54,215 nt of DNA. Source: a virus. The first letter of the stretch is position 1, and each line of letters starts with the position of its first letter. The stretch spans positions 1 through 54,215 of the IMG/VR virus record IMGVR_UViG_3300010885_013679; one strand, written 5' to 3'. Below are positions 12,201-44,615 of the stretch, in pieces. Under the pieces are notes generated by a model, which was not told the origin of the DNA, searched no databases, and saw nothing but the letters and a program-made list of their open reading frames with translations. Position numbers and translations under genes: made by a program.

Positions 12201-15200
12201 TTTTGCCAATTCTTTATTAACCAAAACATTCATGATTGATGGGTGGTCAACAACTATTTTAAATTTTAACGTTCCGGTCCTTTCCGTACTTTGGTAAGTG
12301 TATATTGGTTCAGGCCTACCTAAAAAAACATTATCCTTCCATGATGTTCTAACATTATCATCAAAACTTAATTCATAAGGTGGGAACCACATAATTCTAC
12401 CCCCATTTGGACCTATCTCACAACCAGGTAAACTATCAACCGTAAATCCAGGTCTACTAGACGTTCTCCAAGCCAAGTTTTCAATTGAGAACATATATTT
12501 TATCACTTTACCGTCCTTTCCAATATTGGTGGAATCTTCTCCATACATTGGAGCAATGTTCAAGTTATATGTAGAATCTAAAACAGAATAGGTGGCTCCT
12601 CTAATATTACCTTTACCATTATTTAATCTATTTTTTTGTAATTGTTTGTATGTACTATAGGGTCTATCCTTTGTGAATAGCCTACAATACTCATAACCTT
12701 GTACACTACTCACAGCGGCCGTACCAAGTTTTACAGATGTTGGCGTCACGTATCTAAAAACCCTGGACCCCTTAGTCATCTCTTGGTACCCATCGTTAAA
12801 CACTTTAGTAACTTGATTAATAGCATTACCCACATGGTTAGGGCTAGATGATTTGGCACCGGCATCTATTAATTTTTGAGTGATGTCAAGTATCGACCCG
12901 TCAGTAAACGACAAAATAGAAGACTTACCGTCATTAAATGCTTGTTGTAATATGGTATCAAAAACAACGTCAGTAGAATTAATAATTTTATTATTAAACC
13001 CAACAAATAAACCAGGTTTAATAAATGACGAATCGTTAGTTGTCCATATAAAATCACCTATAATACTTGAATTACCAACAACCCCTAAAGTATCTAAAGA
13101 CCCATTGTAATAATTTCTTGTATTTAAACCAAACAACCTTCGATTAACATCTTCACCTTCAAACTCCTTACCTAATACTCCGTAATCAAATACAGGTCCA
13201 TTATTAGGTTTACCATCTCTACCTTTAGGTTGGTCAAGTTTTGGACTAACAATGTCTCTTACAAAATTTTTACTATTACCAATATAAAAATTAGGTTTAG
13301 GTGATGATAAATTAGGACTTTGTAAAGAATCTAAATTATAATCAGGTCTATATGAATTATAAAATAACATGTCAAACAACAACGACCTTGTTGCTTTTGA
13401 TGTATTAGCCATTAATCTTTCAGACCCCGTATCAATATTTGCAGATAATAAATTATTTACAAGATTCCCTATATCTCCCGCAATAGCACCAATAGGATTG
13501 GCCAACATTTGACTTCCAAATTTTTTATCGGGATAATCAAAATATTCACCAGGAATAATAGAGTATGGAGAATAAAGACCTGATAGTCTTGAAGTAAATC
13601 CTAATATGTCTCCAACAATTGTTGATGGTGATGTTATTTGATAATTTTTTTGGACAAGTGGTATGTTATTCGTCACCACACCTAAAATATCAAATGGGTC
13701 GATTGACGGACTTGGCCCAATTCCACCTGATATTGTAGATACGGATGAGTTAGATAAAATAGACCTACCTAATGTTTGTTGGTATAATTCGTAAGCAACC
13801 CTTGTTCTAAATTCTTTTTGTAATTGTTTTGCAGCGATTTTAGCCAAATTAGAATCCTGACTTAAACTTCCTTCAGTTCCATTTGGATTATCGCTGTTTA
13901 AAATATTAATAGGACTATAGAACGACGGAACAAAAGAAAACGTAGTGTCGCTATTAGCATATGGTCTGTTTAAACTATCAGGAAATATCTCATCAATAAC
14001 TAACTCGTCATATGCCCCATCACCAGTATTATAAAGATTTTTACCATAGTTATATGATTGAGATTGTTCTGTTGTTTTTCCAGGTTGTGATGCCGTAAAA
14101 TCATACTCACCTTTATTAGCTTGTGTTTGGGTTTCTCTATTTGGAACAACCACGTCAGGAATAATATCCGGTTGATATGGGTTTTTTACTACCGTAGTTT
14201 TAAGTCTTTGGTCACCAATTCGTTCAAGTTTACTATCGTTACCCGAATTCTCTGTTGGTTCATATGGACCGACATTTGCTCCGAGTGAAAAATTACTATT
14301 TATATTAATTACATCACCGTAGTTTGTTCTTCTAGTTCCTGTTGTATATTTATTTTTAGTATATAAAAACTTACTTGTCGTAATACCAACACTATTTAAT
14401 TCACTATTAATCGCGTCGTTAGCATTATCATATTCACCATAATTAGAAACCCCTAAAGTTCTTGTTGAGAACAATACGGTGTCACCAAAACCATTAGCTA
14501 CCGATTCCGGATTATATTTGTTTAAAACTCTTAATATGTTTTCTTGTGAATCACCTTTTAACTCTAAAGGGCTTAACACCGCATCATCCGGTCCATAATT
14601 ACCCTCATTAGCCTTAGTTTGGAAATTTAGGTTAGGTGTGACTGAAGTATTATTTTGCGTTCCTTGTGGACCATATTGGTTAATAACTATTTGAGCATCC
14701 TTTGAGAATAACCCTATCTTCTCTAAATCACTACCTAAACTATCTATAAAGTCATAGTGACCTTCGTTAGGTTTTGTTTGATTATTTACGTTAGGGTTGA
14801 CAACATTTCTACTATCCGTTTGGTCAGGTCCGTATTGGTTTTTAATTATTAATTCATTTTCTTTAACATCACCAATAACTTCTAAATTACTACCAAAAGT
14901 TTTTTCAAACCCATAAAGACCTTCGTTTGTAATTTTGTTTGTGTTTTTATTAATATTAACGGGGTTACCAAAAGAATTTGAAAACTGAGTTGGTCCATAT
15001 ATGTTCTGAACATATAATAGTTTTTCAGAGTTATCGCCAATAACTTCTAATTTTGACCCTTCAGTATTTTTAAAACCATATAGACCACCATTGGTCTCAG
15101 TTCCTTTATTAATGTTTATTTGAATAACATTACCAAACTCACCACCAGAATTAAATTTATTTTGTTTTGTTAATCTCTCTTCTTGTTTTTTCTGTTCAAC

Positions 15201-15365
15201 ACTAATATCGGGAGAATCACTAACAGAATAATCTACCAATGTGATTTCTTTTTTATTAATCTTTGAAGACGCGAACGAACCGTCAACACTATATGGTTGT
15301 AAATTTTTTACTAATAATTTTTTTCTAAAATTCTCAGTTGAATCAAACGAAAGTGGACTCTCCAT
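9267..15365 (-). CDS. Giant baseplate structural protein with 53-residue repeats and OmpA-like domain (2032 aa)
   Basis: Three parts can be recognised. Residues about 85-420 are degenerate tandem repeats of about 53 residues with the pattern NEGxYG..., LExIGD, NxYGP. Around residue 1000 is a segment FPPYELSFDDN...GRPEPIYTYQSTERTGTLKF, a phrase I associate with baseplate proteins of contractile tails. Around residues 1215-1330 is an OmpA-C-like domain with FNQSLSKRRADSV. The rest is unrecognised. Lying between the tape measure and gp53-like genes, it is most likely a baseplate wedge or hub component able to contact peptidoglycan. The start at 15365 (MESPLSFD) is preceded by a TATTTATC box. Confidence 0.75.
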   Translation of the reverse strand: MESPLSFDSTENFRKKLLVKNLQPYSVDGSFASSKINKKEITLVDYSVSDSPDISVEQKKQEERLTKQNKFNSGGEFGNVIQININKGTETNGGLYGFKNTEGSKLEVIGDNSEKLLYVQNIYGPTQFSNSFGNPVNINKNTNKITNEGLYGFEKTFGSNLEVIGDVKENELIIKNQYGPDQTDSRNVVNPNVNNQTKPNEGHYDFIDSLGSDLEKIGLFSKDAQIVINQYGPQGTQNNTSVTPNLNFQTKANEGNYGPDDAVLSPLELKGDSQENILRVLNKYNPESVANGFGDTVLFSTRTLGVSNYGEYDNANDAINSELNSVGITTSKFLYTKNKYTTGTRRTNYGDVININSNFSLGANVGPYEPTENSGNDSKLERIGDQRLKTTVVKNPYQPDIIPDVVVPNRETQTQANKGEYDFTASQPGKTTEQSQSYNYGKNLYNTGDGAYDELVIDEIFPDSLNRPYANSDTTFSFVPSFYSPINILNSDNPNGTEGSLSQDSNLAKIAAKQLQKEFRTRVAYELYQQTLGRSILSNSSVSTISGGIGPSPSIDPFDILGVVTNNIPLVQKNYQITSPSTIVGDILGFTSRLSGLYSPYSIIPGEYFDYPDKKFGSQMLANPIGAIAGDIGNLVNNLLSANIDTGSERLMANTSKATRSLLFDMLFYNSYRPDYNLDSLQSPNLSSPKPNFYIGNSKNFVRDIVSPKLDQPKGRDGKPNNGPVFDYGVLGKEFEGEDVNRRLFGLNTRNYYNGSLDTLGVVGNSSIIGDFIWTTNDSSFIKPGLFVGFNNKIINSTDVVFDTILQQAFNDGKSSILSFTDGSILDITQKLIDAGAKSSSPNHVGNAINQVTKVFNDGYQEMTKGSRVFRYVTPTSVKLGTAAVSSVQGYEYCRLFTKDRPYSTYKQLQKNRLNNGKGNIRGATYSVLDSTYNLNIAPMYGEDSTNIGKDGKVIKYMFSIENLAWRTSSRPGFTVDSLPGCEIGPNGGRIMWFPPYELSFDDNVRTSWKDNVFLGRPEPIYTYQSTERTGTLKFKIVVDHPSIMNVLVNKELAKENSSVATKVIDSFIAGCTEYDIYDLLKKYKSFSLSDIYNVIETINNVTELVPSTPNPNPVGEVIVQENANLVEESAGSSSGQTQQENIEIAKFQNIQLLFENAIPDSSDTSSSYDKFYSELSGLKSTYNSGAEDKIYNYNGTVLPNPPANFSLKDFLDTRKTSISGIFTFLDSEYNTFKELLSKVIKLCGGGTKVTLDVIGSANSTASVSFNQSLSKRRADSVVKMITDYTEGDLKMKDMVDKKLLLFNIEANGENQPIDEEGYRDIDCSKPFNNQTIYQFSVQGMMCRRTKVGVAKVEAPTNVPEAASTEVSDAPEGAIDPLGADVNNTNDTQPQSESSYVVKQTQKKTLTNEVREGITKRLLRKLLSECNYFEMIREENPMIYDGIRSKIKNFNPVFHSITPEGLNARLTFLQQCMRPGETIPTVVEAGQNTTTEAYNDVTNSAFGSPPICVIRVGDFFHTKAVFESLDLKFDDAVYDLNPEGIGVQPMIAEVTMQIKFIGGQGLREPIAKLQNALSFNYYANTEMYDERAEETDPINPKFEKQLIDDIKKEIGDIGPQKRPEVNDGGVTLGVVESTYLDVNTSQIKGKIRYKELMDTMVDKTENYINGAYSTLQTLNTDLLWGGLILYTSTPKFTSGLFNYLLGNLSNKVTIFGKPDGYQDRVDKLFNGAKDDVENETSPILGGLGQETFPTNGEIRKVKRKIKEMIDSRKSGYLQSLEKNTSKLVKSQIEFVKYVDQINYVLSQVDGYKNKSGGVVIYDISGTTEIGAGSTAANTYDELRDDFLTIRTDLSGLTNAFGEYQLIPNGVGKVYSDEFNFETYIDSKVPKDVRFFLIFGKEILEDSDKFINEIMSSIPDAIFQNNWQKFLYQNIGIMITGVSFNSSPNKTYLPTGRYKNYEKSKKTLDDNFKNFKDKYFSVKLPNDKYKPFNKGKIRLFDLTKQDPVSPPNDVNLLSLWDTVDSGGDDFNLKKKMN
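14110..15100 (-). repeat. Six to seven degenerate 53-residue protein repeats
   Basis: Within the 2032-aa protein, successive units begin NGGLYGF, NEGLYGF, NEGHYDF, NEGNYGP, SNYGEYD, NVGPYEP and NKGEYDF. Three consecutive units are exactly 53 residues. Most carry LE-x-IGD about 15 residues in and N-x-YGP about 30 residues in. DNA identity is low, so the repeats are old. Confidence 0.85.
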
Positions 15366-18954: not shown

Positions 18955-19833
18955 TCATACTTCGTTTTTTATATCTCCTTTAGTTAAATATGTTCTTACT
19001 GAACTTTCAGGATATTCTTTTTCTAAAAAACCTTTCATTTTCTCAATATTTCTAGGGTCGTCATCTGAAAAACCAATCTTTGGTGTAAATTCTTGGTTAG
19101 TCATGTCATTTTTAAAAATTGCTCGTTTTCCAATCTCTTGAGCCATTTCTTGACAATATATAATAAACTTTCTCATTGCAACAATTTTTAACTCTTCGGG
19201 ATTCACAGCACTACCTTGACCATAAGTGACTGGTTCAAAACGACACATATCTAAATAATCGTCAATAAGTTCTTTATTTGAAAATTTTAATGTGGTTGAT
19301 TGTTCATAAACCATATCTACTCCAAACTCCCTATATTTTTTAAGGTTTTCCACAAGAGTCTTACTATTGATTCCATTATGATTACCCACAATAAAATTAT
19401 AAACCGTTTCTTTTAAAACCTCTGGATTATGTCCTCTTGCAGTTATAATCGCAAAGATTGACCCCCCATTAATACATTCTACAAAATCATTCCAAGACGG
19501 ACCTAATTTAGCGGTCATAGCATCTAAAACAAATCTCTTATTTCCTTGAACTCCAAAATATTTGAATGGGTCGGGAGCATAACCAACAATTGTTGTCCCT
19601 TTAAAACTAAATGGTTCGACACCTAATTCATGTCTATGTTCTGCAAATTCCTCAGTTGACATTCCAACCTCTTCTTCGTTTTCAGACATAACCATAATCT
19701 TGGTTGGCATAAATACAATATTATCATCCCAATCGAATGCGTAATATTTTGTATCAGGAGTTCCTGATTCATCTATCCCCTCATTTAAATTTTTCTTATT
19801 TAAATACGAGTATACATGTTTTTTAATATTCAT
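18955..19833 (-). CDS. HAD-superfamily hydrolase between tube and sheath genes
   Basis: 292 residues. HAD motif I is YYAFDWDDNIVFMPT (D34, D36 for nucleophile and acid), motif II is IFAIITARGH (about 126-135), and motif IV is IGFSDDDPRNIEKM (about 254-267). A Lys for motif III probably lies in the segment between. The family hydrolyses phosphoester bonds on nucleotides, sugars or nucleic acid ends. T4 polynucleotide kinase also carries a HAD phosphatase domain, but no kinase P-loop is present here. The ATG overlaps the stop codon of the upstream 45-aa gene (TAATG), so the two are translationally coupled. Substrate unknown. Confidence 0.75.
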   Translation of the reverse strand: MNIKKHVYSYLNKKNLNEGIDESGTPDTKYYAFDWDDNIVFMPTKIMVMSENEEEVGMSTEEFAEHRHELGVEPFSFKGTTIVGYAPDPFKYFGVQGNKRFVLDAMTAKLGPSWNDFVECINGGSIFAIITARGHNPEVLKETVYNFIVGNHNGINSKTLVENLKKYREFGVDMVYEQSTTLKFSNKELIDDYLDMCRFEPVTYGQGSAVNPEELKIVAMRKFIIYCQEMAQEIGKRAIFKNDMTNQEFTPKIGFSDDDPRNIEKMKGFLEKEYPESSVRTYLTKGDIKNEV

Positions 19834-24781: not shown

Positions 24782-25297
24782 TTAAATTCCTCTAAATTCA
24801 TTTTCATTGGCTGGCGCCGCAATTATTGTCCTATAATATGGTTTATACCCACCATACGTATGTTTATTGTCTGAAACGACCCTTCCATCATCGACTACAG
24901 AATAATATCTAACTCTTGTTTCAGTTTCATAGTAACCAAGATAATCTCCTAAATTTATATCAACAGATAACTCATCTAAACTTTTTTGATAAACACTAAC
25001 TATTAAATTACCAGGTTCTGTTTGATAAATTTTACTACTTCCCATATCCGCATTTGTTGGGGACTCAACTTTAACATATCCTTTAAATTCCACTGGAGGT
25101 AAATACTGAATGGAATCTGATAATGCCTCCCCATAAACATCATCACTATTTGTTTTTTGTCTATCGACCCGATAAAGAACTAAAGTGAAATTCATATCAC
25201 CCAATAACCATTCCTCACCCATTGCCAACTCTAAATTAAAGTCTTGTTCTGCAAAAAATTTATTAAGTCTTGTAATGGGTACTCTATTTTGTGTCAT
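24782..25297 (-). CDS. gp14-like neck protein (tentative)
   Basis: 171 residues of mostly beta sequence. Segments such as DDVYGEALSDSIQYLPPVEFKGYVKVESP and INLGDYLGYYETETRVRYYSVVDDGRV follow the general plan of T4-like neck protein gp14, where a short peptide is followed by a 'GDxxxYxxxxTxxRYYxV' type strand. T4 gp14 is 256 residues, so this would be short. It lies 2 bases before the gp15-like gene. The TATTTATA box ends only three bases before its ATG, so the transcript may be nearly leaderless or start elsewhere. Confidence 0.4.
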   Translation of the reverse strand: MTQNRVPITRLNKFFAEQDFNLELAMGEEWLLGDMNFTLVLYRVDRQKTNSDDVYGEALSDSIQYLPPVEFKGYVKVESPTNADMGSSKIYQTEPGNLIVSVYQKSLDELSVDINLGDYLGYYETETRVRYYSVVDDGRVVSDNKHTYGGYKPYYRTIIAAPANENEFRGI

Positions 25298-25356: not shown

Positions 25357-27120
25357 ATGGAAAATATTATATCAAAAACACCGGAAGCTAAGGCCCTTTT
25401 AATTTTAGACGATTATATGGGCTCAAATAATTATATCCTTAATTTAAAACAAAAAAAACAAAATAGCAAATCTTTTGTTCCAACAAGACCTCAGTCGGAC
25501 TATATAATTAACTATCACAATGTTCAACCAAAAGTAGCTAAGAAATGGGTAAAGTTAGATTCTTATTTTGGTAAAAAATTAATGGAGGATAAAATGTATA
25601 CCAAAGAACCAAAAGAAATTTATGTTGAAAAACTTTTGGTGGAAAAAGATAAATCTTATCACATTTGGGGTAAAATATTCTCAGGAGATGTCACTTATGA
25701 TTTTTGGATGCCAAAATCAGCAATTATTAAAGATAACGAAATAAAAAATATTGTTATCGATTATAGTAAGTACCAACATAGAATGCCAATGACACACCAA
25801 CTTGAGGCTATTGAAAAATTGGTTGGGAACAAAAAGTTTATTTTGGCGGATGATATGGGTTTGGGTAAAACAACTTCGGCAATTATTGCGTCTTTAGAAA
25901 CTAAATCAAAAAAAATATTGATTGTTTGTCCAGCATCTTTAAAAATTAATTGGCAACGTGAAATTGAAAATTATTCAGATAGGTCTGTTTATATTGCGGA
26001 AGGTAAGAAATTTTCAGATGAACACGATTTTGTTATTATTAATTACGACATTTTAAAAAATTTCCACGACATTAAAAAGAAAGACAACTCAATAATTTTA
26101 AAGACAAAATTTGACCTTGTGATTATGGATGAGGCACATATGATTTCAAATCCACAAGCAAACAGAACTAAGATTGTAAATGATATTATCTCCAAAATAG
26201 AAAGGGTTTGGTTATTATCAGGAACTCCAATGACATCAAGACCAATGAACTATTATAACTTATTAAATATTGTTGATAGCCCTGTCGCAGCAAATTGGAT
26301 GGCTTACGCCATAAGATATTGTAATGGGTTTCAGTTTAATGTTGGTAAAAGAAAAATTTGGAATGTCCAAGGGGCTACAAACTTAGAAGAATTAAGGGAA
26401 AGAACTCAAACACATATCTTACGTAGATTAAAGGAAGAGGTTTTAGATTTACCTGAAAAAATAATTACTCCTGTTTATTTAAGATTAGTATCTAAAGATT
26501 ATGAAGAAATTATGGGAGAATACTACGATTGGTATGACCAAAATCCTGAAGAATCTAATTCACTAACAATACAGTTTGGTAAATTAATGAAGGTTAGAAA
26601 GATAATTGCTCAGGAAAAAGTTAATAACACTATTGAGTTAGCGGAAAACATTATTGAACAAGGTAAGAAAGTAATTATTTTTACAAACTTTACAGATACT
26701 CTACAACAAATTTATCAACACTTTGGGAAATCTGCGGTTTATTTGGATGGTAGTTGTTCAAAACCACACCGTCAAAACTCGGTAGACGAATTCCAAACAA
26801 ATGACAAAATTATGGTGTTTGTTGGTAACTTAAAAGCCGCAGGCGTAGGATTAACTTTAACCGCAGCGGAGGCTGTAATTATGAACGACTTATCATTTGT
26901 TCCTGCAGAACATGCACAAGCAGAAGACCGATCACATAGAATTGGACAAAAAAATTCAACTTCAGTTTATTATCCGTTGTTTGAAAATACAATTGAGGGG
27001 GCAATTTATGACATATTAAATAGAAAGAAAAAAGTTATTTCAACGGTTATGGGGGATAGTTTAATGGATGATGCGTCTACAATTGAAGAAATGTTGAAAA
27101 TGATTTCTAAAGGTCGGTGA
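25357..27120 (+). CDS. SNF2-family helicase/ATPase
   Basis: 587 residues. Motifs in order: Q-like MTHQLEAIEKL (about 145-155), Walker A ILADDMGLGKTT (about 162-173), DEAH box at 258-261, motif III LLSGTPM (about 286-292), a C-terminal RecA lobe with IIFTNFTDTL, and motif VI EDRSHRIGQ. SNF2-type enzymes translocate on double-stranded DNA and remodel DNA-protein complexes or forks. In a T4-like phage this may fill part of the role of UvsW or Dda. The ATG at 25357 (MENIISKT) is preferred over an in-frame TTG at 25315 because the extra residues are hydrophobic and not conserved-looking. It is read divergently from the gp14-like gene. Confidence 0.88.
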   Translation: MENIISKTPEAKALLILDDYMGSNNYILNLKQKKQNSKSFVPTRPQSDYIINYHNVQPKVAKKWVKLDSYFGKKLMEDKMYTKEPKEIYVEKLLVEKDKSYHIWGKIFSGDVTYDFWMPKSAIIKDNEIKNIVIDYSKYQHRMPMTHQLEAIEKLVGNKKFILADDMGLGKTTSAIIASLETKSKKILIVCPASLKINWQREIENYSDRSVYIAEGKKFSDEHDFVIINYDILKNFHDIKKKDNSIILKTKFDLVIMDEAHMISNPQANRTKIVNDIISKIERVWLLSGTPMTSRPMNYYNLLNIVDSPVAANWMAYAIRYCNGFQFNVGKRKIWNVQGATNLEELRERTQTHILRRLKEEVLDLPEKIITPVYLRLVSKDYEEIMGEYYDWYDQNPEESNSLTIQFGKLMKVRKIIAQEKVNNTIELAENIIEQGKKVIIFTNFTDTLQQIYQHFGKSAVYLDGSCSKPHRQNSVDEFQTNDKIMVFVGNLKAAGVGLTLTAAEAVIMNDLSFVPAEHAQAEDRSHRIGQKNSTSVYYPLFENTIEGAIYDILNRKKKVISTVMGDSLMDDASTIEEMLKMISKGR

Positions 27121-27128
27121 TATTTATA
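27121..27128 (+). promoter_or_regulatory. TATTTATA late-promoter-like box
   Basis: Exact match on the coding strand, right after the helicase stop codon and only four bases before the ATG of the superoxide dismutase fusion. Confidence 0.4.
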
Positions 27129-27132: not shown

Positions 27133-28224
27133 ATGGAAGTTCATATTAGATACAATGGGGTTGATCCAAACAAGGAACAAGAATCATTAATAAATAAATT
27201 TATAGAGAATTTAAAAAAGTCACACCCACTTAAAGATGACATTACTGTCATATTCCAAAATAAAAGAACGGGAACAATGACAACAGGTTCAAGATCCGAC
27301 ACTCATAAGTTAAAAATTTTAGTTAAGGACAGAATCAATAGAGATATTTTAAAAACTTTATCACATGAATGGGTACATGAATACCAAAGAACCGTTTTGA
27401 ATAGAAAACAAGGAAAAGATGTTGGGGGTAAGAATGAGGATGAAGCAAAAGCAAAAGCAGGTAAAGAAGTTAAAGATTTTGAATACAAAAATAAAAAAAT
27501 AGAAAAGTCGATTTATAAACCATTCCAAGAAAGAATTGAAAATTTAGAGTCAGAATTACAAGTTGAATCTACATCTAAACAATTAATTATAAGTGAAATT
27601 AAAAAAATAAGTATAGATAAATTACCTTACGATTTTAATGATGTTAATGTGTTTATAGATTCTGAAACAATGAAAACTCACTATAATAAACATTACAAGG
27701 GGTATGTTGAGAAATTAAATGTTGAGTTAGAAAAAATACCAGGTAAAGATATTGATTTAGAAAACATTATTAAAAAAATATCAAGTTTTAACACTAAAGT
27801 TAAAAATAATGGGGGTGGAGCGTTTAATCATGCTCTTTTTTGGAAGATGTTGTCACCAAAAAAACAAACAATAAAAGACCCTATTTTAAGTAAAATAAAT
27901 AAGACTTTTGGTTCTTTTGAAAAATTTAAAGAAAAGTTTGAGGAAGAAGCAAAAAATAGATTTGGTTCAGGATGGGTTTGGTTGATTATTACAAAAAATA
28001 ATAATTTAAAAATGGTTACAACACAAAACCAAGATAACCCATTAATGAATACTGAAAAGATAAATGGTTATCCATTACTTGGTTTAGATTTATGGGAACA
28101 CGCTTATTATTTAAAATATAAAAACGAAAGAGACAAATATATTCACAATTTTTGGAACGTTGTAAATTGGGAATTTGTTAATGACTCTTACGTAACACAA
28201 ACAAAAAAAATAGACCTAAAGTAA
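27133..28224 (+). CDS. Metallopeptidase-like domain fused to Mn-type superoxide dismutase
   Basis: 363 residues with two domains. Residues 1-120 contain SHEWVHEYQR (HEXXH at 78-82) and a downstream NEDEAKAKAG, a plausible third ligand Glu, as in zinc gluzincins. Residues about 160-353 are a complete Fe/Mn superoxide dismutase: metal ligands H183 (THYNKHYKGYV), H233 (FNHALFW), D319 and H323 (LDLWEHAYY), plus FGSGWVWL and the terminal FWNVVNWEF. Glycine 229 and Gln300 (TQNQDNPLM) match manganese rather than iron enzymes. The dismutase would convert superoxide to peroxide and oxygen. Between the domains is a Lys/Glu-rich helix. No signal peptide is seen, so it is cytoplasmic or packaged. It lies between a helicase and a virion gene. 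Confidence 0.9.
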   Translation: MEVHIRYNGVDPNKEQESLINKFIENLKKSHPLKDDITVIFQNKRTGTMTTGSRSDTHKLKILVKDRINRDILKTLSHEWVHEYQRTVLNRKQGKDVGGKNEDEAKAKAGKEVKDFEYKNKKIEKSIYKPFQERIENLESELQVESTSKQLIISEIKKISIDKLPYDFNDVNVFIDSETMKTHYNKHYKGYVEKLNVELEKIPGKDIDLENIIKKISSFNTKVKNNGGGAFNHALFWKMLSPKKQTIKDPILSKINKTFGSFEKFKEKFEEEAKNRFGSGWVWLIITKNNNLKMVTTQNQDNPLMNTEKINGYPLLGLDLWEHAYYLKYKNERDKYIHNFWNVVNWEFVNDSYVTQTKKIDLK

Positions 28225-28242
28225 TCCTTTTTAAATCGTAGA

Positions 28243-28250
28243 TATTTATA
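28243..28250 (+). promoter_or_regulatory. TATTTATA late-promoter-like box
   Basis: Exact match, 14 bases before the ATG at 28265; no -35-like element upstream. Confidence 0.5.
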
Positions 28251-28264: not shown

Positions 28265-29383
28265 ATGTCTACAGTAATTATCACGGAACCAGAAAGAAGT
28301 AAACTTTACAAAAGAATAAAGAATCTTTTGGGTGCGCCTTTAAGATCTGTTGAACTTGAGGATGACATGATGGACTCTTTATTGGAATTATCTATTCAAG
28401 ACTACGCTCAACACGTCAATGATTGGCTTATTGAAAGTCAGTGGGCGTCTTTATACGGGTTAAATCTTGACGAACAATCCGTAACAAGAGCGTTCACTAC
28501 AAGAAGTTTAGATTGGGAAACTCAATACACTTATGCGTATTCTAAAATTGTTGGTTTACAAGCTGGTGGGGATTACGTACTAAAAAAAGACTATATTGAG
28601 TTAGTCGCTAACCAACAAATATATGAGATTCCAGCGGGAAGAGAACTTAATGAGCTTCTTTGGTTTTCACGTTCTGAGTTAGACGCAGCATATTTCGACC
28701 CGTTTATGGGTGGGTTTGGAGGTATGGGTGGTGTTGGTTTAGGTGGTGGAGCAGGTTTTTCACAAATGGGCACCACAGGTAACTATTTTGTTACGTCTGC
28801 GTTTGACATTCTTTTAAGGATGTCTGACATTAATATTAAAAGAAGAATTATTACGGGTGACTTAACATATAGAATCACCGCACTACCTGAAGGTAAAAAG
28901 GCCATCCACTTAATGAATGTGCCTGGTGGTAAATTTGATTTTGGTAATCTAAGACATAATCATAGTCGAGTTTGGTATTGGTATTACGATACGTTTGACC
29001 GTGAGGATTGTTTAAAGAAAAATCCAGATATTGTTAGGTTACCTTCAGACGTACCTATAGATGAAATGAGATGGGATGAATTAAATTCGCCAGCACAAAC
29101 TTGGGTTCGTAGATGGTTTACTGCGTACTGTAAAGAAACACTTGCGAGAGTTAGAGGTAAATATAGTGGTAATTTAAAAACCCCTGACTCTGAATTAACT
29201 TTAGAGTATACATCACTAGCCACAGAATCAAAAGACGAGAAAACTATGTTATGGGAAGAATTAAAAGCAAGGCTTGAAAGACTAAGACCTGAAAAACAAT
29301 GGGAAATAAAAGGTGTTCAAGCGGAAAATATGAATAAAGCATTAAAGTTTAGACCATTTACAAGTCCATATACTGTTATATAA
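28265..29383 (+). CDS. Putative neck/head-completion structural protein
   Basis: 372 residues. The N-terminus (KRIKNLLGAPLRSVELEDDMMDSLLELSIQDYAQ) is a helical bundle reminiscent of head-to-tail connector proteins, followed by a Gly-rich loop (GGFGGMGGVGLGGGAG at about 148-163) and a beta-rich C-terminal half with many Trp and Tyr. Position and length fit a neck protein such as gp13, but no family motif proves it. The next gene follows after 7 bases. A TATTTATA box supports late expression and the start. Confidence 0.5.
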   Translation: MSTVIITEPERSKLYKRIKNLLGAPLRSVELEDDMMDSLLELSIQDYAQHVNDWLIESQWASLYGLNLDEQSVTRAFTTRSLDWETQYTYAYSKIVGLQAGGDYVLKKDYIELVANQQIYEIPAGRELNELLWFSRSELDAAYFDPFMGGFGGMGGVGLGGGAGFSQMGTTGNYFVTSAFDILLRMSDINIKRRIITGDLTYRITALPEGKKAIHLMNVPGGKFDFGNLRHNHSRVWYWYYDTFDREDCLKKNPDIVRLPSDVPIDEMRWDELNSPAQTWVRRWFTAYCKETLARVRGKYSGNLKTPDSELTLEYTSLATESKDEKTMLWEELKARLERLRPEKQWEIKGVQAENMNKALKFRPFTSPYTVI

Positions 29384-29390: not shown

Positions 29391-29723
29391 ATGCCAGTTT
29401 TTAGATCGTTCCCCTCAAAAAGAATTATTAATGGTTTCGAAATTGAAACTTCGGATTCCTCTGTAGTCATTAATCAAAATTATCACACACAAGGAGAATA
29501 TGTTATAATTTTTAAAGGTGATAGTGGTAATGTGTTATTTTTAGATTCAAAAAATACGGACCACGTCGTTGTTAAATCATTAACAACCGTTTTAGTTAAA
29601 TCAGACAAATTAATCGATGAAGAGTTTGAAGAAGTCGAACTTAGTCATGGGTCATGTGTAGAATTCAAATGGGTTGGTGATTTTTGGTATATCCTCTCAT
29701 CCGATGGATTAAAAAGTTCTTAG
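29391..29723 (+). CDS. Small beta-rich virion-type protein, unknown function
   Basis: 110 residues, nearly all predicted beta strand, ending FWYILSSDGLKSS. The ending resembles trimerising tip or capping domains of phage appendage proteins, but this is a visual impression only. It shares four bases with the 3' end of the convergent DNA polymerase gene, so no terminator fits between them. Confidence 0.55.
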   Translation: MPVFRSFPSKRIINGFEIETSDSSVVINQNYHTQGEYVIIFKGDSGNVLFLDSKNTDHVVVKSLTTVLVKSDKLIDEEFEEVELSHGSCVEFKWVGDFWYILSSDGLKSS

Positions 29724-32999: not shown

Positions 33000-35291
33000 T
33001 TAACAAGGGGGGGATAATAGTGTATATTGGGTAACTATACCACTAGCGTTTATTACAACCCAATACAATACAGTTAGAGGTGAAACATTACCATTATTCG
33101 CCACTATGAAATGTCCTTCTTGGTACGGACTACTAGGATTATTATATTGACCAACAAATGAACCGACAATTAAAGGTGCGGTTATCACCCCAGGTTGGCC
33201 GGCATATTGATTATTATTACATACAATAATTTGAGCGGCTTCAGGATTGGCAACATAAGTAAATGAATCCCATTGTTCTTGACCAACAATTCTAAAACTA
33301 TTCCAAAAAGTTGGTTGAGCATTAAGTGTTGGTGTTGGTGTCGGAGTCGGGCTTATTGTTGGTGTCGGCGTCGGAGTCCCTATTGTAGGAGTAGGTGTAG
33401 GTGTTGGGGTTGCAGGATTTAAACAATTAGGACACCAAAAGTTAAATAAACGATATTGTTTTTCTAAAATCCTAAAATTATGTTGTATTGATGGTGACCC
33501 TAATGGTTCCGTATACATCCTAAACTGAGAAATACCACCCATAAATGTTCCCCCAAAATTTTGTTCAATAAGAATGTTAGTACTTAACCCACTATATGTT
33601 GTTGCCGATAAAATATTATTTGGGAACAATTCTGGATCCTGTATGTATGGACCATAAGGGGTTGTTGTTGATGAAAATATTAAATGGTCGTGTAGTCCTT
33701 GTGACCCACCACCAAAAGATAAATTAAAAGGAACTCCTATCTGTTTTTCTTTTTCGGTGTTTAACTCTCTAGGAATAATCTCCTCAAAGTTTTCAATCAC
33801 CATAAATTTATATCCGTTAACATATAACGTTAACGTACCCATCCTATAAAATGTATCATCAAACCATTTTCTATTAAAATTAACTTGGTATACCTTATTT
33901 TCTTTAGTCCCGCTAGAATTTGTTTCAGGTGGCATTATCAAATTATATGACGTACCATTTAATATTGATTGGTATGTTACCTTTCTAATATCATTTAATC
34001 CTCCTAAATTTAATAGGTCACAGTTCTCTATTGTTGTATACCTCTCAAATACTGCGCTAATCATAACCCATCTGTCTTCAGTAATTGCGGTACAAACATA
34101 GTCACAATCATCATATATTGGTGGTGAACAAACTTCTGTAATTGTATATCCTGTTTGATACGTTAATCCCGTAGTTAAACAACTACCAGTTGTTACACAA
34201 TCTCCCGTTATTTTAATATATTTAACACACAAACTTGGATTTGCAGGGCAACCATTAAATCTTATTGATACGCCATTAGATAATACATCAAACTTAGGGT
34301 CTAATGGTGGTACAGACATTTGTTCGGTACATGCACCACAACCACAACCAATATTATGATAAGCTGTTGTTGCACTTTTAGGGTATACCGTAATACAATT
34401 AGAATTTGTAACACCGGTATTAGAACAACTACATGTGCTCAATTCGGTCAATCCTAATGTTGCCCTTGTATACCCACTATTAGACAACGGACTACCATTT
34501 GCAAAATGATAATATTTATTCTCAGCTCTTGTACCAAAATAAAAGAATGTACCAGCATTATTATTATAAATGTTGTTCAAGTATTGTTGGGTATTTGTGT
34601 TTGCGGTATATATATCAGTGATTCTTGGTTTTAACATCATCTCCACAGTCCATCCCTTATTAACTCTTTCGGGAAATACCTCATAATCATATCCAAATAA
34701 CTTATAGAATCCTTGGTAAAAACCACCATAAAGTTGTTGGTAGTAACCAATATAAGGGTCATAATCAGAAACAATATTATATAATGTATTTTTTGGTCTA
34801 CCCGAAAAAACCACATTTGGTGATGTGGTATACCCGGTAACCATGTGAAGCTTCATTCTTCTATCATAATAATGTGGGTGAAATTTATAATCGTTTCTAA
34901 TACCCATTGTGTAATACAAAGTGTTTCCGGTCATACCAGTGTATAATCCGTTATCTGTAGCAACTAAACCAACATCACACGATCCGGTAAATGCCGAATA
35001 ACAACTTAAATCCAAATTGTTTGGGTTATAATAGTTTTTAGAAACTATAGTTGCCCCTGAAAGGTATTGACCAAAACTTATACTATTTTGTGGGGAACAA
35101 TTTGAACTTGTTATGTCAATGTTAATTGGCAATCTATTGCCGTCATTTTCGGCAATTAAATTAGTTGAAAACACTCCTTCTTGATTGTAGTCACCCTCAT
35201 CCGCAGATAAAGTTAAGTCAAAATATTGACCGTATCTTAAATTAGATTTGTATTTTGGAAAATAATACGTATTTAGATTCTGCGTTGGCAT
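33000..35291 (-). CDS. Large appendage/tail-fibre-like protein with PT-rich linker
   Basis: 763 residues, rich in Tyr, Thr, Asn and Cys. The first 640 residues resemble beta-rich surface proteins (several concanavalin-like strands, such as WTVEMMLKPRITDIY and SFGGGSQGLHDHLIFSS). A PT-rich linker (about 625-655) separates a terminal beta domain of about 100 residues. The unusual number of cysteines suggests disulphides or metal binding. Such proteins commonly recognise the host surface. It has its own TATTTATC box and is divergent from the plus-strand gene at 35343. The binding target is unknown. Confidence 0.6.
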   Translation of the reverse strand: MPTQNLNTYYFPKYKSNLRYGQYFDLTLSADEGDYNQEGVFSTNLIAENDGNRLPINIDITSSNCSPQNSISFGQYLSGATIVSKNYYNPNNLDLSCYSAFTGSCDVGLVATDNGLYTGMTGNTLYYTMGIRNDYKFHPHYYDRRMKLHMVTGYTTSPNVVFSGRPKNTLYNIVSDYDPYIGYYQQLYGGFYQGFYKLFGYDYEVFPERVNKGWTVEMMLKPRITDIYTANTNTQQYLNNIYNNNAGTFFYFGTRAENKYYHFANGSPLSNSGYTRATLGLTELSTCSCSNTGVTNSNCITVYPKSATTAYHNIGCGCGACTEQMSVPPLDPKFDVLSNGVSIRFNGCPANPSLCVKYIKITGDCVTTGSCLTTGLTYQTGYTITEVCSPPIYDDCDYVCTAITEDRWVMISAVFERYTTIENCDLLNLGGLNDIRKVTYQSILNGTSYNLIMPPETNSSGTKENKVYQVNFNRKWFDDTFYRMGTLTLYVNGYKFMVIENFEEIIPRELNTEKEKQIGVPFNLSFGGGSQGLHDHLIFSSTTTPYGPYIQDPELFPNNILSATTYSGLSTNILIEQNFGGTFMGGISQFRMYTEPLGSPSIQHNFRILEKQYRLFNFWCPNCLNPATPTPTPTPTIGTPTPTPTISPTPTPTPTLNAQPTFWNSFRIVGQEQWDSFTYVANPEAAQIIVCNNNQYAGQPGVITAPLIVGSFVGQYNNPSSPYQEGHFIVANNGNVSPLTVLYWVVINASGIVTQYTLLSPPC
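33333..33413 (-). repeat. Pro-Thr dipeptide repeats in the appendage protein
   Basis: Coding repeats of PT dipeptides in three blocks broken by IG and IS, forming an extended flexible linker. Confidence 0.85.
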
Positions 35292-36520: not shown

Positions 36521-36814
36521 ATGGCTATTCAATCTGATAAATTAGATTTTTCGCAACCAAACAATGTCTTATCTAAAATTGCAGAAGAGCAAAGAAAAAA
36601 ACTATTTCCTAGAAATGACTTTTCACCTGTTGACCAATATTCGTCGGTTCACCCTGATGCATTGGCAAATGGTGATAAGATTGGTAGAGGGACTGGAGTT
36701 GAGCTAGACATTTATAATAACAACATAGGAACAAGTACTGATGTTGCGGAAAGAAAAGATGACTTAAAAGTAAATAAATACTCACAAAACAACCCCTATT
36801 ATTCAGTACAATGA
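36521..36814 (+). CDS. Hypothetical protein
   Basis: 97 residues, polar, with SKIAEEQRKKLFPRNDFSP in the N-terminal part and many Asn and Asp residues at the end. No family recognised. The stop codon overlaps the ATG of the WYL-like gene (ATGA). Confidence 0.5.
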   Translation: MAIQSDKLDFSQPNNVLSKIAEEQRKKLFPRNDFSPVDQYSSVHPDALANGDKIGRGTGVELDIYNNNIGTSTDVAERKDDLKVNKYSQNNPYYSVQ

Positions 36815-37236
36815 AATTAATGAATAGTCTTAAAGGTCTAATTACTGAGATTGCATCGGCACAAGATATACAACGATCGATAAACATGAAAAACGTTATA
36901 ACGATAAATTATAATGGAAGAGAATACGGTAAAGGATATCGAGATATTGAACCCGTATGTTTTGGTATTAGTAAATCAGGTAATTTTGTTTTAAGGGCTT
37001 GGGAAATAGAAGGTTCGTCACATTCAAATAAGGTTAAGGGTAATCCAATACCTGGATGGAGATTATTTAGATTAGATAAAATATTGACTTATCAACTACA
37101 AGGGGATAAATTTACTGAGTCGCGTCCATTTTATAACCCAAATGGTGATAAATCGATGTCTAGAGTTATTGTTAACGCAGTATTCGATAATCAGGGTAAT
37201 GAGGACAATACCGATAATTTAGAAAATATAACATAA
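36811..37236 (+). CDS. WYL-like domain protein
   Basis: 141 residues. The pattern from about 29 to 92 follows the WYL fold: ITINYNGRE, RDIEPVCFGISKSGNFVLRAW, then GWRLFRLDKI. WYL domains bind small ligands or nucleic acid and usually accompany an HTH; none is present here. Thus it is a stand-alone domain of unknown role, possibly a sensor or nucleic-acid binding component. An alternative start at residue 4 (36820) is possible. It is coupled on both sides. Confidence 0.5.
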   Translation: MKLMNSLKGLITEIASAQDIQRSINMKNVITINYNGREYGKGYRDIEPVCFGISKSGNFVLRAWEIEGSSHSNKVKGNPIPGWRLFRLDKILTYQLQGDKFTESRPFYNPNGDKSMSRVIVNAVFDNQGNEDNTDNLENIT

Positions 37237-37928: not shown

Positions 37929-39137
37929 ATGAGTAAAATAAGAGTATTAGTATTACCTTCAGATAAAACAGGTGTCGGTAAGTTCAGAAGTTTGGACCCG
38001 CACATTTGTTTACAAAATAACCATTCAGATGAATTTCATGTTGACATTGATTACGAACCAAGGGTTAATGATTTAAATTATTGGAAACAATATGACATCG
38101 TCCATTTTCATAGAACAATTGGTCATGAGTATGAACATTCTGTAGAATTAATAAAAACAATTAATTCATTAGGTATTGTAACAATTGCCGATATTGACGA
38201 CTATTGGTTACCAACAAAAGAACATCCTGTACATAGTTTAGTAATGGAACACCGATTACATGAAAAAATTATGAATAATTTAAAAGTCGCTCAACATGTA
38301 ACAACAACAACTTCGGTTTTTGCAAAAGAAATATCAAAATTAAATAAAAGCGTTTATGTTTTACCTAACGCAATAAACCCCAATGAACCACAGTTTAAAT
38401 ACAAAACAGAAACGTCAGACAAATTAAGATTTGGGTGGTTAGGTGGGTCATCTCACCTTCACGATTTAAAACTATTGGACGGCACAATAAATAAGTTAAG
38501 ACCACAACAAGATAAGTTTGAAATGTATCTATGTGGATTTGATATTCGAGGTACGGTTACTGAAATTAATCAACAAACTAGAGAACAAAAACAAAGACCA
38601 ATCACGCCTCAAGAAACTGTTTGGTCAAGATATGAAGAAATTTTTACAAACAATTATTCTTTTGTTGATGACCAACATAAAGAATTTTTAATGAAGTTTG
38701 AAGATACTCCGTATGATGGAAAAACATTCTATAATAGAATTTGGACAAAACCAGTAACTTCTTACGCATCTAATTATAGATTATTTGATGTATCTTTAGC
38801 CCCTATTAAAAACCACATTTTTAATAGAGTAAAATCACAACTTAAAGTAATCGAAGCGGGATTTTATAAAAAGGCGATAATAGCATCAAACGTAGGTCCG
38901 TACACCGTAGATTTAAAACACGCACTTAAACATGGTGAATTTACTGATGGTAACGCACTTTTAGTTGATGAAGTTAGGAACCATAGCGATTGGTCTAAAT
39001 ACATGAAAAAATTAATTGATAATCCTAATTGGGCTTACGATTTAGGTCAAAGATTGTATGAAACGGTAAAAGACACGTACGACCTAAATAAAGTAACGAA
39101 AGACAGGGCTGAACTATATAAATCCTTAATAAAATGA
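37929..39137 (+). CDS. GT-B glycosyltransferase (GT4-like)
   Basis: 402 residues. A Rossmann-type N-terminal domain (IRVLVLPSDKTGVGKFRSL), an IVHFHRTIGHEYEHS segment, and a second domain with RFGWLGGSSHLHDL and a C-terminal sugar-nucleotide-binding pattern (KVIEAGFYKKAIIASNVGPY) match GT4-type enzymes. It would transfer a sugar from a nucleotide donor. It leads the glycan operon after a terminator. The stop overlaps the start of the exonuclease gene (ATGA), so nucleic-acid genes are embedded within the same transcript. Substrate cannot be read. Confidence 0.75.
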   Translation: MSKIRVLVLPSDKTGVGKFRSLDPHICLQNNHSDEFHVDIDYEPRVNDLNYWKQYDIVHFHRTIGHEYEHSVELIKTINSLGIVTIADIDDYWLPTKEHPVHSLVMEHRLHEKIMNNLKVAQHVTTTTSVFAKEISKLNKSVYVLPNAINPNEPQFKYKTETSDKLRFGWLGGSSHLHDLKLLDGTINKLRPQQDKFEMYLCGFDIRGTVTEINQQTREQKQRPITPQETVWSRYEEIFTNNYSFVDDQHKEFLMKFEDTPYDGKTFYNRIWTKPVTSYASNYRLFDVSLAPIKNHIFNRVKSQLKVIEAGFYKKAIIASNVGPYTVDLKHALKHGEFTDGNALLVDEVRNHSDWSKYMKKLIDNPNWAYDLGQRLYETVKDTYDLNKVTKDRAELYKSLIK

Positions 39138-39862
39138 TAAATACACCTATTAACAAAATCCTATTTTTAGATATTGAAACCGTTGGTTTGTGTCGTAATT
39201 GGGAAGGATGTAAAGAAAATCATCCAAATATTGCAGAACAATTTGTAAAATATTTTGATTGGTTTTTAAAACGTTTCCCTGAAGATAATGTGGAAACAGA
39301 TGGATTAGAGGAAGAACTACAAAAGATGAACGACGTTTATGAAAAACGTTCCGCACTTGTTCCAGAATTTGCAAAGATTGTTTGTGTTTCGATGGCATTT
39401 ATGACTAAAGATGGAATTAAACAACAAACGTTTTCTAACCACGACGAAAAACAATTATTGATGGATGTTAGAGATTTATTGGATCGTTGCCACAAATTAG
39501 ATTTTTATTTATGTGGTCACAATCTTAAAAACTTTGATATCCCAATGTTAGCAAAACGAATGATTATCAATGGAATTATGCCATCAAAAATTCTACCTTC
39601 ATATGATACCAAACCATGGGAAGTAAAAGCTATAGACACAAAAGAAATTTGGCAATACGGAGCATACACCTCCATTGGTTCATTGGATTTAGTTTGTTCT
39701 ACTATGGGTATTGACACACCAAAGGATGGTCCGATTCACGGAGGAAATGTGCATGAAGTATATTGGAATAACCAAAGTAGATTGGATGAGATTTCAGAAT
39801 ACTGCGAAAAAGACGTTAAAGTACTTGTCGATTTCATAAAAAAATTAAAAGAATTAAAATAA
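39134..39862 (+). CDS. DEDDy 3'-5' exonuclease (PolB exonuclease-like)
   Basis: 242 residues. ExoI is ILFLDIETVG (D13, E15), ExoII is LCGHNLKNFDIPML (about 130-143), and ExoIII is YCEKDVKVLV (about 222-231), the Y-x-x-x-D form of the DEDDy group. It resembles stand-alone relatives of the polymerase B proofreading domain. It would trim 3' ends in repair or recombination. It overlaps genes on both sides (ATGA, then TAATG). Confidence 0.85.
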   Translation: MINTPINKILFLDIETVGLCRNWEGCKENHPNIAEQFVKYFDWFLKRFPEDNVETDGLEEELQKMNDVYEKRSALVPEFAKIVCVSMAFMTKDGIKQQTFSNHDEKQLLMDVRDLLDRCHKLDFYLCGHNLKNFDIPMLAKRMIINGIMPSKILPSYDTKPWEVKAIDTKEIWQYGAYTSIGSLDLVCSTMGIDTPKDGPIHGGNVHEVYWNNQSRLDEISEYCEKDVKVLVDFIKKLKELK

Positions 39863-40464
39863 TGTTTGAAAAATTAAAAGAAATGAAAGAAGGTATGAAA
39901 ATGATTAAAGACCTTCAATCAAAATTTGGAGATTTAAATATGGAAAACCCCGAAGAGATGTTAAAATCTATGGGTGTTACATCAGAAGATTTAGAATCTC
40001 ATTTTATGGAATCTATGGTTAATAGAGTTCAGATGAAATACGCTAACGACAGCAACAATAAAAACCCAGAATACGCATATAAATCAGACTCAGGATTTGA
40101 TTTAAGGGCGGTAGATGACATTTGGGTTCAAGCAAACGACAGAAAATTAATACCGACAGGATTAAGATTTGACATACCCGATGGGTTTGAAATACAAGTA
40201 AGGTCAAAAAGTGGTTTAGCGTTAAATCATGGGTTAATGGTTTTAAATTCTCCAGGAACAGTAGATAGCGGTTATCAAGGCGAGATTAAAGTCATAATGT
40301 TTAACACTACAAATCAAAAAATTAAAATAGAAAAAGGTCAAAAAATTGCACAAGCGGTTGTGTGTCCGGTAGTTAATGGAAGATGGATAGATTTAATTAA
40401 AGTTGATGTCTTACCAGAAAAAGATAGAAACGATAATGGGTTTGGATCAACAGGTTTAAAATAA
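39862..40464 (+). CDS. dut: dUTPase with N-terminal helical extension
   Basis: 200 residues. Trimeric dUTPase motifs are all present: motif 1 SDSGFDLRA, motif 2 RSKSGLA, motif 3 GTVDSGYQGEI, motif 4 GQKIAQAVV and motif 5 RNDNGFGSTG. It hydrolyses dUTP to dUMP, protecting phage DNA from uracil and feeding thymidylate synthesis. About 65 extra residues precede the catalytic part; they form amphipathic helices (KLKEMKEGMKMIKDLQSKF) not found in standard enzymes (about 150 residues) and may mediate a contact. The ATG overlaps the preceding stop codon. Confidence 0.9.
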   Translation: MFEKLKEMKEGMKMIKDLQSKFGDLNMENPEEMLKSMGVTSEDLESHFMESMVNRVQMKYANDSNNKNPEYAYKSDSGFDLRAVDDIWVQANDRKLIPTGLRFDIPDGFEIQVRSKSGLALNHGLMVLNSPGTVDSGYQGEIKVIMFNTTNQKIKIEKGQKIAQAVVCPVVNGRWIDLIKVDVLPEKDRNDNGFGSTGLK

Positions 40465-40469
40465 TAGAT

Positions 40470-41564
40470 ATGATTACTATAGGATTTTCAACAAGAAAAA
40501 TTGATAACGATTTTATTGACATGATTAAGAAAACTTCAGGGGTATCTAATCCTGAAATAATTCCTGTGGAAAATAATGGTCAGTTGTCATTGACTGAAAT
40601 TTATAATAAAATATTAAATGATTCAAAAAACGATATCGTAATATTATGTCACGATGACATTTATTTTGATAGTAAAAATTGGGGTCAAAAAATATTAAAA
40701 CATTTTAAAAGAAATCTCGATTATGGAATTTTAGGTCTTGCGGGCACAACTCACATGCCAAAATCCGCAAAATGGTGGGAAGATTTTTCTAAAATGAAAG
40801 GGATTGTAAATCATGAACATGAAGGTAAAAAATGGGAATCAAAATATTCTTCAAGTTTAGGTAATCAAATTGATGATGTAGTTTTGGTTGATGGTCTTTT
40901 TATTGTCATAAACAAAAATAAAATTAAACAACCTTTTAACAAAGAAATAAAAGGGTTCCACTTTTATGATGTGGATTTTTCATTTAGAAATTTTATTGAC
41001 GATGTAAAGATTGGGGTTATGTATGATGTAAGAGTTACACATAAATCCATCGGTCAAACAAATGAACAATGGGAAAAAAATAGAGAAATATTTGCTGAAA
41101 AATATGAAGATGTTTTACCGGTTAAAATTAAAAAAGATGTGAATAAAAACTCAAATTTAAAAATTTTAATTTTTGAGAATGATTTTTATAGATGTGAGAA
41201 CTTACTAACATCTTTAAAAAAAATAAAATTCACCCCATCTTTTTGTGGTATGGTATACGATGAAAAAATTATTAAAAAATTAAAACTTAATAATGTTAAA
41301 AGTTTTAATATAAATGAACCTTGTGGATATAAACTTGGTGACGGCAAATGGGGCTTTAATAATCCAAATGGATTTATTCCTGCTGAAGTGAACAAACTAT
41401 ATAAAATATCTGAAGTTAACTTTGACATTATTCATATTTTTGATGAAAACTTATTACCAATGGTTAAAGGTCTTTATCCTAACTCTGATATTTTTTTACA
41501 AAATAAAACATATAACTCGGAAGACGAATTAATAAACGATTATAATAATTTTTTAAATGGTTAA
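40470..41564 (+). CDS. Glycosyltransferase-like protein (GT2-type, PF13712-like)
   Basis: 364 residues. The first 230 have a GT-A pattern: IVILCHDDIYFDS (DxD-like HDD at 61-63), LGLAGTTHMPKSAKWW, VDGLFIVINKNKI, and FHFYDVDFSFR. The last 130 residues are a separate domain with no recognised family. It would transfer a sugar to a glycan or protein. The gene end overlaps the next by eight bases. Confidence 0.7.
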   Translation: MITIGFSTRKIDNDFIDMIKKTSGVSNPEIIPVENNGQLSLTEIYNKILNDSKNDIVILCHDDIYFDSKNWGQKILKHFKRNLDYGILGLAGTTHMPKSAKWWEDFSKMKGIVNHEHEGKKWESKYSSSLGNQIDDVVLVDGLFIVINKNKIKQPFNKEIKGFHFYDVDFSFRNFIDDVKIGVMYDVRVTHKSIGQTNEQWEKNREIFAEKYEDVLPVKIKKDVNKNSNLKILIFENDFYRCENLLTSLKKIKFTPSFCGMVYDEKIIKKLKLNNVKSFNINEPCGYKLGDGKWGFNNPNGFIPAEVNKLYKISEVNFDIIHIFDENLLPMVKGLYPNSDIFLQNKTYNSEDELINDYNNFLNG

Positions 41565-42348
41565 AATATTATCAGGATGGAGTAATAAAGGAGGATCTAC
41601 TTTCGCCTTTATAAATTTAACAAACGAGTTAAACAAAAACGGAATAGACACTACATTCTATGGTCCACATAATTGGCATTTAGATAAATGTAAATCAGGA
41701 TTATTGGACAATACTTTTACACTTAATAAGGAAGATACAATAATTGTCCATTTTTTAAATTTAGGGGTTAGACCTGACGTAAAAAGAGTTATCCTATCTT
41801 GTCATGAAAAGAATTTATTTGAGGTTGGGGATATGAAACCTTTTTGGGACGAAACAGTCTTTATCAATAATAAACATAGAAACTATCATGAGAGATACAC
41901 GGGACCATTTAACATCATCCCTAATTTAAGGGAATCACTAATTAAAAATAAAAAAAGTAAAGAGGTTATTGGCGTTGCAGGAGTTGTCGGGTCAATAGAT
42001 GAAAATAAACAAACCCATATCTCAATTCAAAGAGCATTAAGTGATGGTAACAAAAAGGTTTATCTTTTTGGTAATGTTACAGATACAAACTACTATAACA
42101 CCCAAGTTAAACCATTAATTGACGGGGATATTGTTGTTGAGTATGGTTACATATCTGACAAACAAAAAATGTACGATATGGTTAGTTCGGCGTATCTTTC
42201 ATCTAAAAGTGAGGTTGCTTCCTTAGTTAAGGATGAGTGTGAAAGTACTGGAACAAATTTTAAAGGTAATTATGCGACAAATAATGACTCTGAATTTTTA
42301 ACAAATGAAGAAATCATTAATAAATGGAAAAACATTTTAAAACTATGA
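41557..42348 (+). CDS. Short GT4-like glycosyltransferase
   Basis: 263 residues, shorter than typical GT4 enzymes (about 350-400). N-terminal WSNKGGSTFAFINLTNEL and a second half with GVAGVVGSIDENKQTHISIQ and KKVYLFGNVTDTNYY match GT-B domains. C-terminal catalytic elements are compact (SSAYLSSKSEVASLVKDE). It starts within the previous gene and ends at a TGA that overlaps the ATG of an 18-codon remnant. Confidence 0.6.
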   Translation: MVKILSGWSNKGGSTFAFINLTNELNKNGIDTTFYGPHNWHLDKCKSGLLDNTFTLNKEDTIIVHFLNLGVRPDVKRVILSCHEKNLFEVGDMKPFWDETVFINNKHRNYHERYTGPFNIIPNLRESLIKNKKSKEVIGVAGVVGSIDENKQTHISIQRALSDGNKKVYLFGNVTDTNYYNTQVKPLIDGDIVVEYGYISDKQKMYDMVSSAYLSSKSEVASLVKDECESTGTNFKGNYATNNDSEFLTNEEIINKWKNILKL

Positions 42349-42401
42349 TAATCGTTACTACATTATACAATGCGGAAAATTATTTAAAAAATAAATACTA
42401 A
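42345..42401 (+). pseudogene. Remnant of a GT2 glycosyltransferase 5' end
   Basis: An 18-codon reading frame begins at the ATG overlapping the previous stop (ATGA) and reads MIIVTTLYNAENYLKNKY. The start is very close to the N-terminus of the intact GT2 gene at 43085 (MVILTGFYNAEKYVERS). The remainder of the gene is absent; the SDR gene follows instead. Confidence 0.6.
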
Positions 42402-42407
42402 AATAAA

Positions 42408-44574: not shown

Positions 44575-44586
44575 AAACTTTAACTC

Positions 44587-44594
44587 TATAAATA
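44587..44594 (+). promoter_or_regulatory. TATAAATA box inside the glycan operon
   Basis: Exact T4 late-promoter octamer in the T4 orientation, 21 bases before the ATG at 44616, in one of the few gaps inside the cluster. Evidence is the single motif only. Confidence 0.3.
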
Positions 44595-44615
44595 CATTAA
44601 ACCAAAAACACAACA

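Follow-up and report, generated by a model that had tools for sequence, protein, structure and literature searches.

A manganese-type superoxide dismutase fused to a zinc-peptidase-like domain, a candidate head cargo of T4-like phages

Why should a virus encode, within one protein, an HExxH metallopeptidase-like domain followed by a complete superoxide dismutase (SOD)? The gene that raises this question lies in a stretch of 54,215 nucleotides (hereafter the window), which is a 54-kb virus record in its own right (IMG/VR record IMGVR_UViG_3300010885_013679). The answer that we favour, and that we consider somewhat probable from sequence patterns, is that the SOD is packaged in the phage head, matured by a prohead protease and ejected with the DNA. 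The biological purpose of the SOD is less certain than its packaging and processing.

The gene under study is the following:
27133 to 28224, + strand: HExxH-SOD fusion gene, 363 amino acids in a single frame with an ATG start; 36 nonredundant fused representatives

The same fusion with the same neighbours was recovered across many independent contigs, which rules out an assembly or gene-calling artefact and confirms the first-pass annotation in its reading of a true fusion. The two halves are not separate in all relatives, a situation that this annotation had named as the mark of an artefact, since at least 36 distinct relatives carry them fused. A query with the fusion protein retrieved at least 588 candidate stretches from viral contigs, and all of the best 80 loci among them carried the fusion. 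It is thus common, and not unique as had been supposed. No fusion was detected among the 50,697 phage records searched (cultured phages). Judged by capsid protein, Flavobacterium phage immuto is among the nearest cultured relatives, and a protein search revealed no SOD in it. Long open reading frames in relatives had also led us to suspect a SOD-adaptor fusion; this candidate was rejected, because the adaptor gene stands on its own downstream and the added parts are other domains.

The C-terminal part of the protein comprises the SOD and its metal ligands:
27598 to 28221, + strand: Mn-type Fe/Mn superoxide dismutase domain, residues 156-363, identified with Pfam, phmmer against the PDB and Foldseek
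27679 to 27681, + strand: H183, SOD metal ligand, invariant in 35 aligned phage SODs
27829 to 27831, + strand: H233, SOD metal ligand, invariant in 35 aligned phage SODs
28087 to 28101, + strand: D319-L-W-E-H323, with two of the four metal ligands (D319 and H323), both unchanged across the 35 aligned phage SODs

Both Pfam domains were detected above their cut-offs, Sod_Fe_N (PF00081) over residues 161-241 (E=3e-20, 72.9 bits for a cut-off of 27) and Sod_Fe_C (PF02777) over residues 250-351 (E=2e-41, 140.5 bits for a cut-off of 20.9). The best PDB match obtained with phmmer was a Sphingobacterium MnSOD, with E~1e-57 over residues 163-354. The SOD fold was also found where the first-pass annotation had proposed to look for it, the predicted structure matching MnSOD with E~1e-18 using Foldseek. 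The second-sphere residues are of the Mn type, namely Gly228/229, the C-terminal Gln300 (in NQDNPL) and G317 at X(D-2), just upstream of D319-L-W-E-H323. A C-terminal Gln and G(D-2) are associated with Mn preference in SODs (PMC10172142). With its two Pfam domains, its four ligands and its second-sphere Gln and Gly, the protein indeed contains the complete Mn-type SOD that had been claimed, and the enzyme looks functional.

The N-terminal part was modelled with AlphaFold2 and contains the following elements:
27133 to 27516, + strand: gluzincin-like zinc-peptidase domain, residues 1-128 (pLDDT 94.9, pTM 0.90)
27364 to 27378, + strand: HEWVH motif, with H78, E79 and H82 as predicted zinc ligands and catalytic Glu, invariant in 48 homologues
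27436 to 27438, + strand: E102, predicted third zinc ligand, invariant in 48 homologues

E102 is the first E of the EDEA motif in which a third ligand had been anticipated, and in the model it belongs to the second helix (residues 100-119). Because it is invariant in the 48 aligned homologues, which include stand-alone proteins, its prediction as third zinc ligand is well supported. The metallopeptidase-like character first assigned to the domain can be specified as gluzincin-like from the invariant HExxH and E102. In BFVD, the structure matches comprise a stand-alone phage protein (TM 0.91) and IrrE-like proteins, the IrrE-like viral models matching with E of 1e-4 to 1e-5. Matches in the PDB were weak (M61/thermolysin, E of 0.04-0.35) and none had an E below 0.001. 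No Pfam or NCBIfam family was detected over cut-off for the HExxH proteins, the members with scores shown having only sub-threshold matches. The stand-alone HExxH gene, of about 129 residues, stops at the position where the linker starts; it sits elsewhere in related genomes and was never seen adjoining the SOD gene. Searching bacterial genomes with the HExxH domain gave one match, located where a contig of a Flavobacteriales MAG ends. This stand-alone HExxH (locus L100, positions 1-234) is perhaps a prophage remnant or a binning error. In four other loci (L225, L233, L238 and L245), HExxH is joined to another C-terminal domain, ParB-like by eye.

The genes and promoter elements that surround the fusion gene are listed below:
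24782 to 25297, - strand: p171, a neighbour in conserved synteny; in relatives it has the same promoter motif upstream
25357 to 27120, + strand: SNF2-family helicase gene (PF00176), conserved upstream neighbour
27119 to 27128, + strand: GATATTTATA, upstream of SOD and probably a late promoter element, from the conservation of TATTTAT in relatives
28241 to 28250, + strand: GATATTTATA before the adaptor gene, with TATTTAT in 84/84 distinct upstream sequences
28265 to 29383, + strand: head-tail adaptor-like gene, directly downstream (phrog_211, E=3e-9)
29391 to 29723, + strand: p110, a gene in conserved synteny that lacks the promoter motif

We fetched 78 loci by the adaptor protein alone, requiring enough upstream sequence, so that the profile-based count avoids choosing loci by SOD. 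The SOD was directly upstream of the head-tail adaptor in all of them (78/78), 45 with and 33 without HExxH. The SOD is therefore a fixed gene of this T4-like phage group, a core gene and not the rarity that the first-pass annotation had taken it to be. The promoter box noticed at that stage was supported, TATTTAT being found upstream of SOD in 82/83 distinct upstream sequences. For p171, 76/77 distinct upstream sequences contain the motif, for the helicase gene 19/38 upstream sequences and for p110 none (0/45). In nine relatives each, it also precedes the gene of the gp21 protease and that of the gp22 scaffold; it is absent upstream of gp23 in the relatives, gp23 being presumably in an operon with the scaffold gene. 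Within the window, TATTTATA is not enriched (18 occurrences for 15.6 expected) and is informative only as conservation across relatives. From this conservation we read TATTTAT as a probable late, head-type promoter element.

A tree of SODs from phages (60) and Bacteroidota (32) places all the phage enzymes in one clade, with a support of 100/100 and a long branch. Related SODs of Bacteroidota are up to 50% identical. As judged from its relatives and from an earlier remark, the T4-like phage group probably infects Bacteroidota. On the SOD tree, the distribution of HExxH requires at least 6 gain or loss events. In some SOD-only proteins (L101, L148 and L152), the very start of the HExxH domain is still present, and by eye they look as if they were derived through in-frame deletion. 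The relatives encode gp21 (PF03420) in 9/20 records and gp23 (PF07068) in 10/20; the window record is a fragment and reaches neither of them. Every capsid protein of the relatives that we examined has LINE↓A[ATS]S ahead of the conserved mature part, the cut position (marked by the arrow) being assigned by homology with T4.

Between the two domains of the fusion protein lies a segment with a candidate cleavage site:
27517 to 27597, + strand: linker or propeptide, residues 129-155, ending in the candidate cleavage site IISE155↓I156

The junction between the two domains has a pLDDT below 50 at residues 144-163 and the linker is predicted to be disordered. In phage T4, gp21 cuts after [LI]xE and Alt is processed at both ends, at ITE-6 and LTE-619 (PMC5694885), while proteins are directed into the head by short peptides at their N-terminus (PMC9026906). 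In 58/59 representatives, the last [LI]xE precedes LPY by exactly 8 residues; in the window protein it corresponds to E155. Cleavage at this point would give a SOD that begins 8 residues ahead of LPY, close to where ordinary MnSODs start. In the SOD-only relatives, the N-terminal peptide has only 31-55 residues and is equivalent to the fusion's linker. In the window protein, the segment ending at E155 is internal and behind HExxH, which speaks against a targeting peptide of the T4 kind, these being N-terminal. Sites were also counted over the 40 residues that follow SOD in the 24 representatives with extensions, where [LI]xE[ASG] occurs 24 times versus 2.2 ± 1.4 in shuffles; the same motif is depleted in the SOD core (2 versus 15.6 expected) and in the HExxH domain (2 versus 8.9 expected), and these site counts are not independent because the representatives are related. 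A point against such processing is the atypical P1' residue after E155, mostly I or M, where many of the C-side sites have S, G or A and the capsid site has A. Some short proteins end with a stub such as KKLNESISTK.

Many relatives carry differing C-terminal extensions after SOD. No match over cut-off was found for the extension domains in Pfam or NCBIfam, and nuclease-like motifs were noticed by eye in two of them. Several have stand-alone homologues starting with MKIIITESS, MKITISEGQYKILSE or MKFIMSESQ. In locus L215, a gene of 318 amino acids located between gp21 and gp22 (2605-3558, + strand) is a homologue of the C-terminal SOD extension of locus L068. Calculated over 464 nonredundant genes, the frequency of the tag motif [ILM][TSNK]E[SGQA] is 6.7 per 1000 in residues 1-10 versus about 1.2 elsewhere, corresponding to a 5.6-fold enrichment. 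TATTTAT was found upstream of 26/56 tagged genes versus 111/398 others (p=0.008). The head-tail adaptor, which is no core protein, also begins with MSTVIITEPE; the tag motif is therefore suggestive and no proof of packaging. Cultured phages, searched for the consensus N-terminal tag, gave no match.

Tag- or site-like sequences were noticed in other genes of the window. A protein of 292 amino acids (18955-19833, - strand), with no Pfam or NCBIfam family, exhibits a DWDDN motif, HAD-like by eye, after a tag-like N-terminus MNIKKHVYSYLNKKNLNE↓G. A 141-residue protein (36811-37236, + strand) has the tag-like start MKLMNSLKGLITE↓IASAQ. Finally, in a protein of 232 amino acids (1615-2313, - strand), APEGAP repeats come after an IISE↓Q located around residue 30; this protein is possibly a head cargo or core protein. 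Further genes of the window are of a different kind. A long + strand cluster (37929-54060) contains genes that are glycosyltransferase- and nucleotide-sugar-enzyme-like by eye (e.g. 52182-53159 and 53128-54060), which suggests phage-encoded glycan synthesis. A 2032-residue protein (9267-15365, - strand) gave weak, sub-cut-off OmpA-type peptidoglycan-binding matches at about 1232-1284, and a 763-residue protein (33000-35291, - strand) with TPTPTPT repeats near its C-terminus is possibly a tail or surface protein.

The promoter motif common to head genes, the candidate sites and the variable C-terminal modules suggest head packaging. From these elements, together with the fusion, its domains and metal sites, the adjacency to the adaptor, the enrichment of sites at the joints, and gp21 and LINE↓A in the relatives, we infer the following course of events. 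The precursor would be expressed late as a head protein, and residues about 129-155 would act as a targeting or propeptide segment that takes the SOD into the prohead. A gp21-type prohead protease would then cut at [LI]xE, freeing the SOD after E155, and the mature SOD would stay in the capsid until it is ejected together with the DNA. The N-terminal HExxH would be an optional module travelling within the precursor and co-packaged with it; in relatives, further modules would be attached C-terminally behind like sites. The ejected SOD, if active, may remove superoxide in the newly infected cell, or the packaged SOD may shield the genome and proteins. Protection against oxidative host defence, put forward in the first-pass annotation, is a possible purpose. 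More broadly, and tentatively, a large group of T4-like phages, probably of Bacteroidota, may deliver an active Mn-SOD as part of a modular head cargo joined or tagged by protease-cut LTES/LNES-type sequences, whose mutually unrelated modules would be the zinc-peptidase-like unit and several extension domains. No case of SOD packaging in a tailed phage was found in the open-access literature searched, which may lack a paper on the subject.

The main rival to head packaging is a late cytoplasmic enzyme, that is, an ordinary auxiliary metabolic enzyme limiting superoxide during assembly, the linkers being flexible joints. Such a role would suit a complete, Mn-type SOD whose relatives in the Bacteroidota hosts are up to 50% identical, and the SODs of freshwater phages are listed among oxidative-stress genes (PMC6802176). 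It leaves unexplained, however, the fixed [LI]xE sites as well as the tag-like joints and the stand-alone tagged homologues of the extensions, and an occupancy of 78/78 beside a head-tail gene differs from that of sporadic accessory genes. We regard it as rather unlikely.

The strict adjacency to the adaptor and the common promoter type could also indicate a structural or neck protein, the SOD fold being a part of the virion near the head-tail joint, catalytic or otherwise. We find this improbable, given that the metal ligands and second-sphere residues are invariant as for a working enzyme, that gene adjacency is weak by itself and that the variable extensions are cargo-like. A coupled two-domain enzyme, whose HExxH peptidase would act on a partner and whose SOD half would serve as redox sensor or switch, had been suggested in the first-pass annotation. 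The halves are fused in 45 of the 78 adaptor-fetched loci and the HExxH-E102 site is invariant, but HExxH and SOD each occur without the other, HExxH is missing in 33 of the 78 loci and the linker is predicted to be disordered. Because HExxH also occurs as a gene of its own and the SOD tree requires at least 6 changes in its presence, a redox switch is not borne out and appears very unlikely. Were the SOD instead packaged in the head, a tailed phage would bring an antioxidant enzyme at the moment of infection and not make it later, an algal virus being the only precedent found. The pattern of tags and sites would then offer a means of predicting the head cargo of many uncultured phages from sequence alone.

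Among known systems, T4 Alt and the internal proteins IPI-IPIII, which have capsid targeting sequences and are processed by gp21 (PMC9026906, PMC5694885), are late head proteins with propeptides, [LI]xE sites and unrelated cargo domains, as proposed for the phage SOD. The processing of Alt at both ends would likewise have a counterpart in the candidate sites on either side of SOD in relatives with extensions. Unlike in the T4 internal proteins, the cargo here would be a Mn-SOD, the candidate targeting segment may be internal, and packaging is predicted from sequence. The Cu/Zn SOD a245r of chlorovirus PBCV-1 is late-expressed and packaged in the virion, and was proposed to lower superoxide in infection (PMC7019647). 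By analogy, this packaged SOD appears as the closest functional parallel, although it belongs to an unrelated Cu/Zn SOD family and to an algal virus. We know of no fusion or prohead-protease sites for the PBCV-1 SOD. The Bacteroidota SodFM1 Mn-SODs, such as that of Sphingobacterium sp. T2 (PDB 5a9g and 6gsc), have the same fold, the same ligands and the same Gln/G(D-2) with 43-44% identity, whereas the phage SODs form their own clade with a long branch and extra segments. The stand-alone phage HExxH proteins and the IrrE/ImmA-like gluzincins are similar to the window domain in HExxH, the downstream Glu and, by prediction, the fold; as differences, no Pfam family scored over cut-off in the members shown and the PDB matches were weak. 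Finally, the freshwater phage SODs listed as oxidative-stress genes also come from environmental phages, and the accessible part of that source mentions neither fusion nor head packaging nor processing (PMC6802176). Phage SODs are thus already known from the literature, and the new part would be their candidate packaging in the head of a tailed phage.
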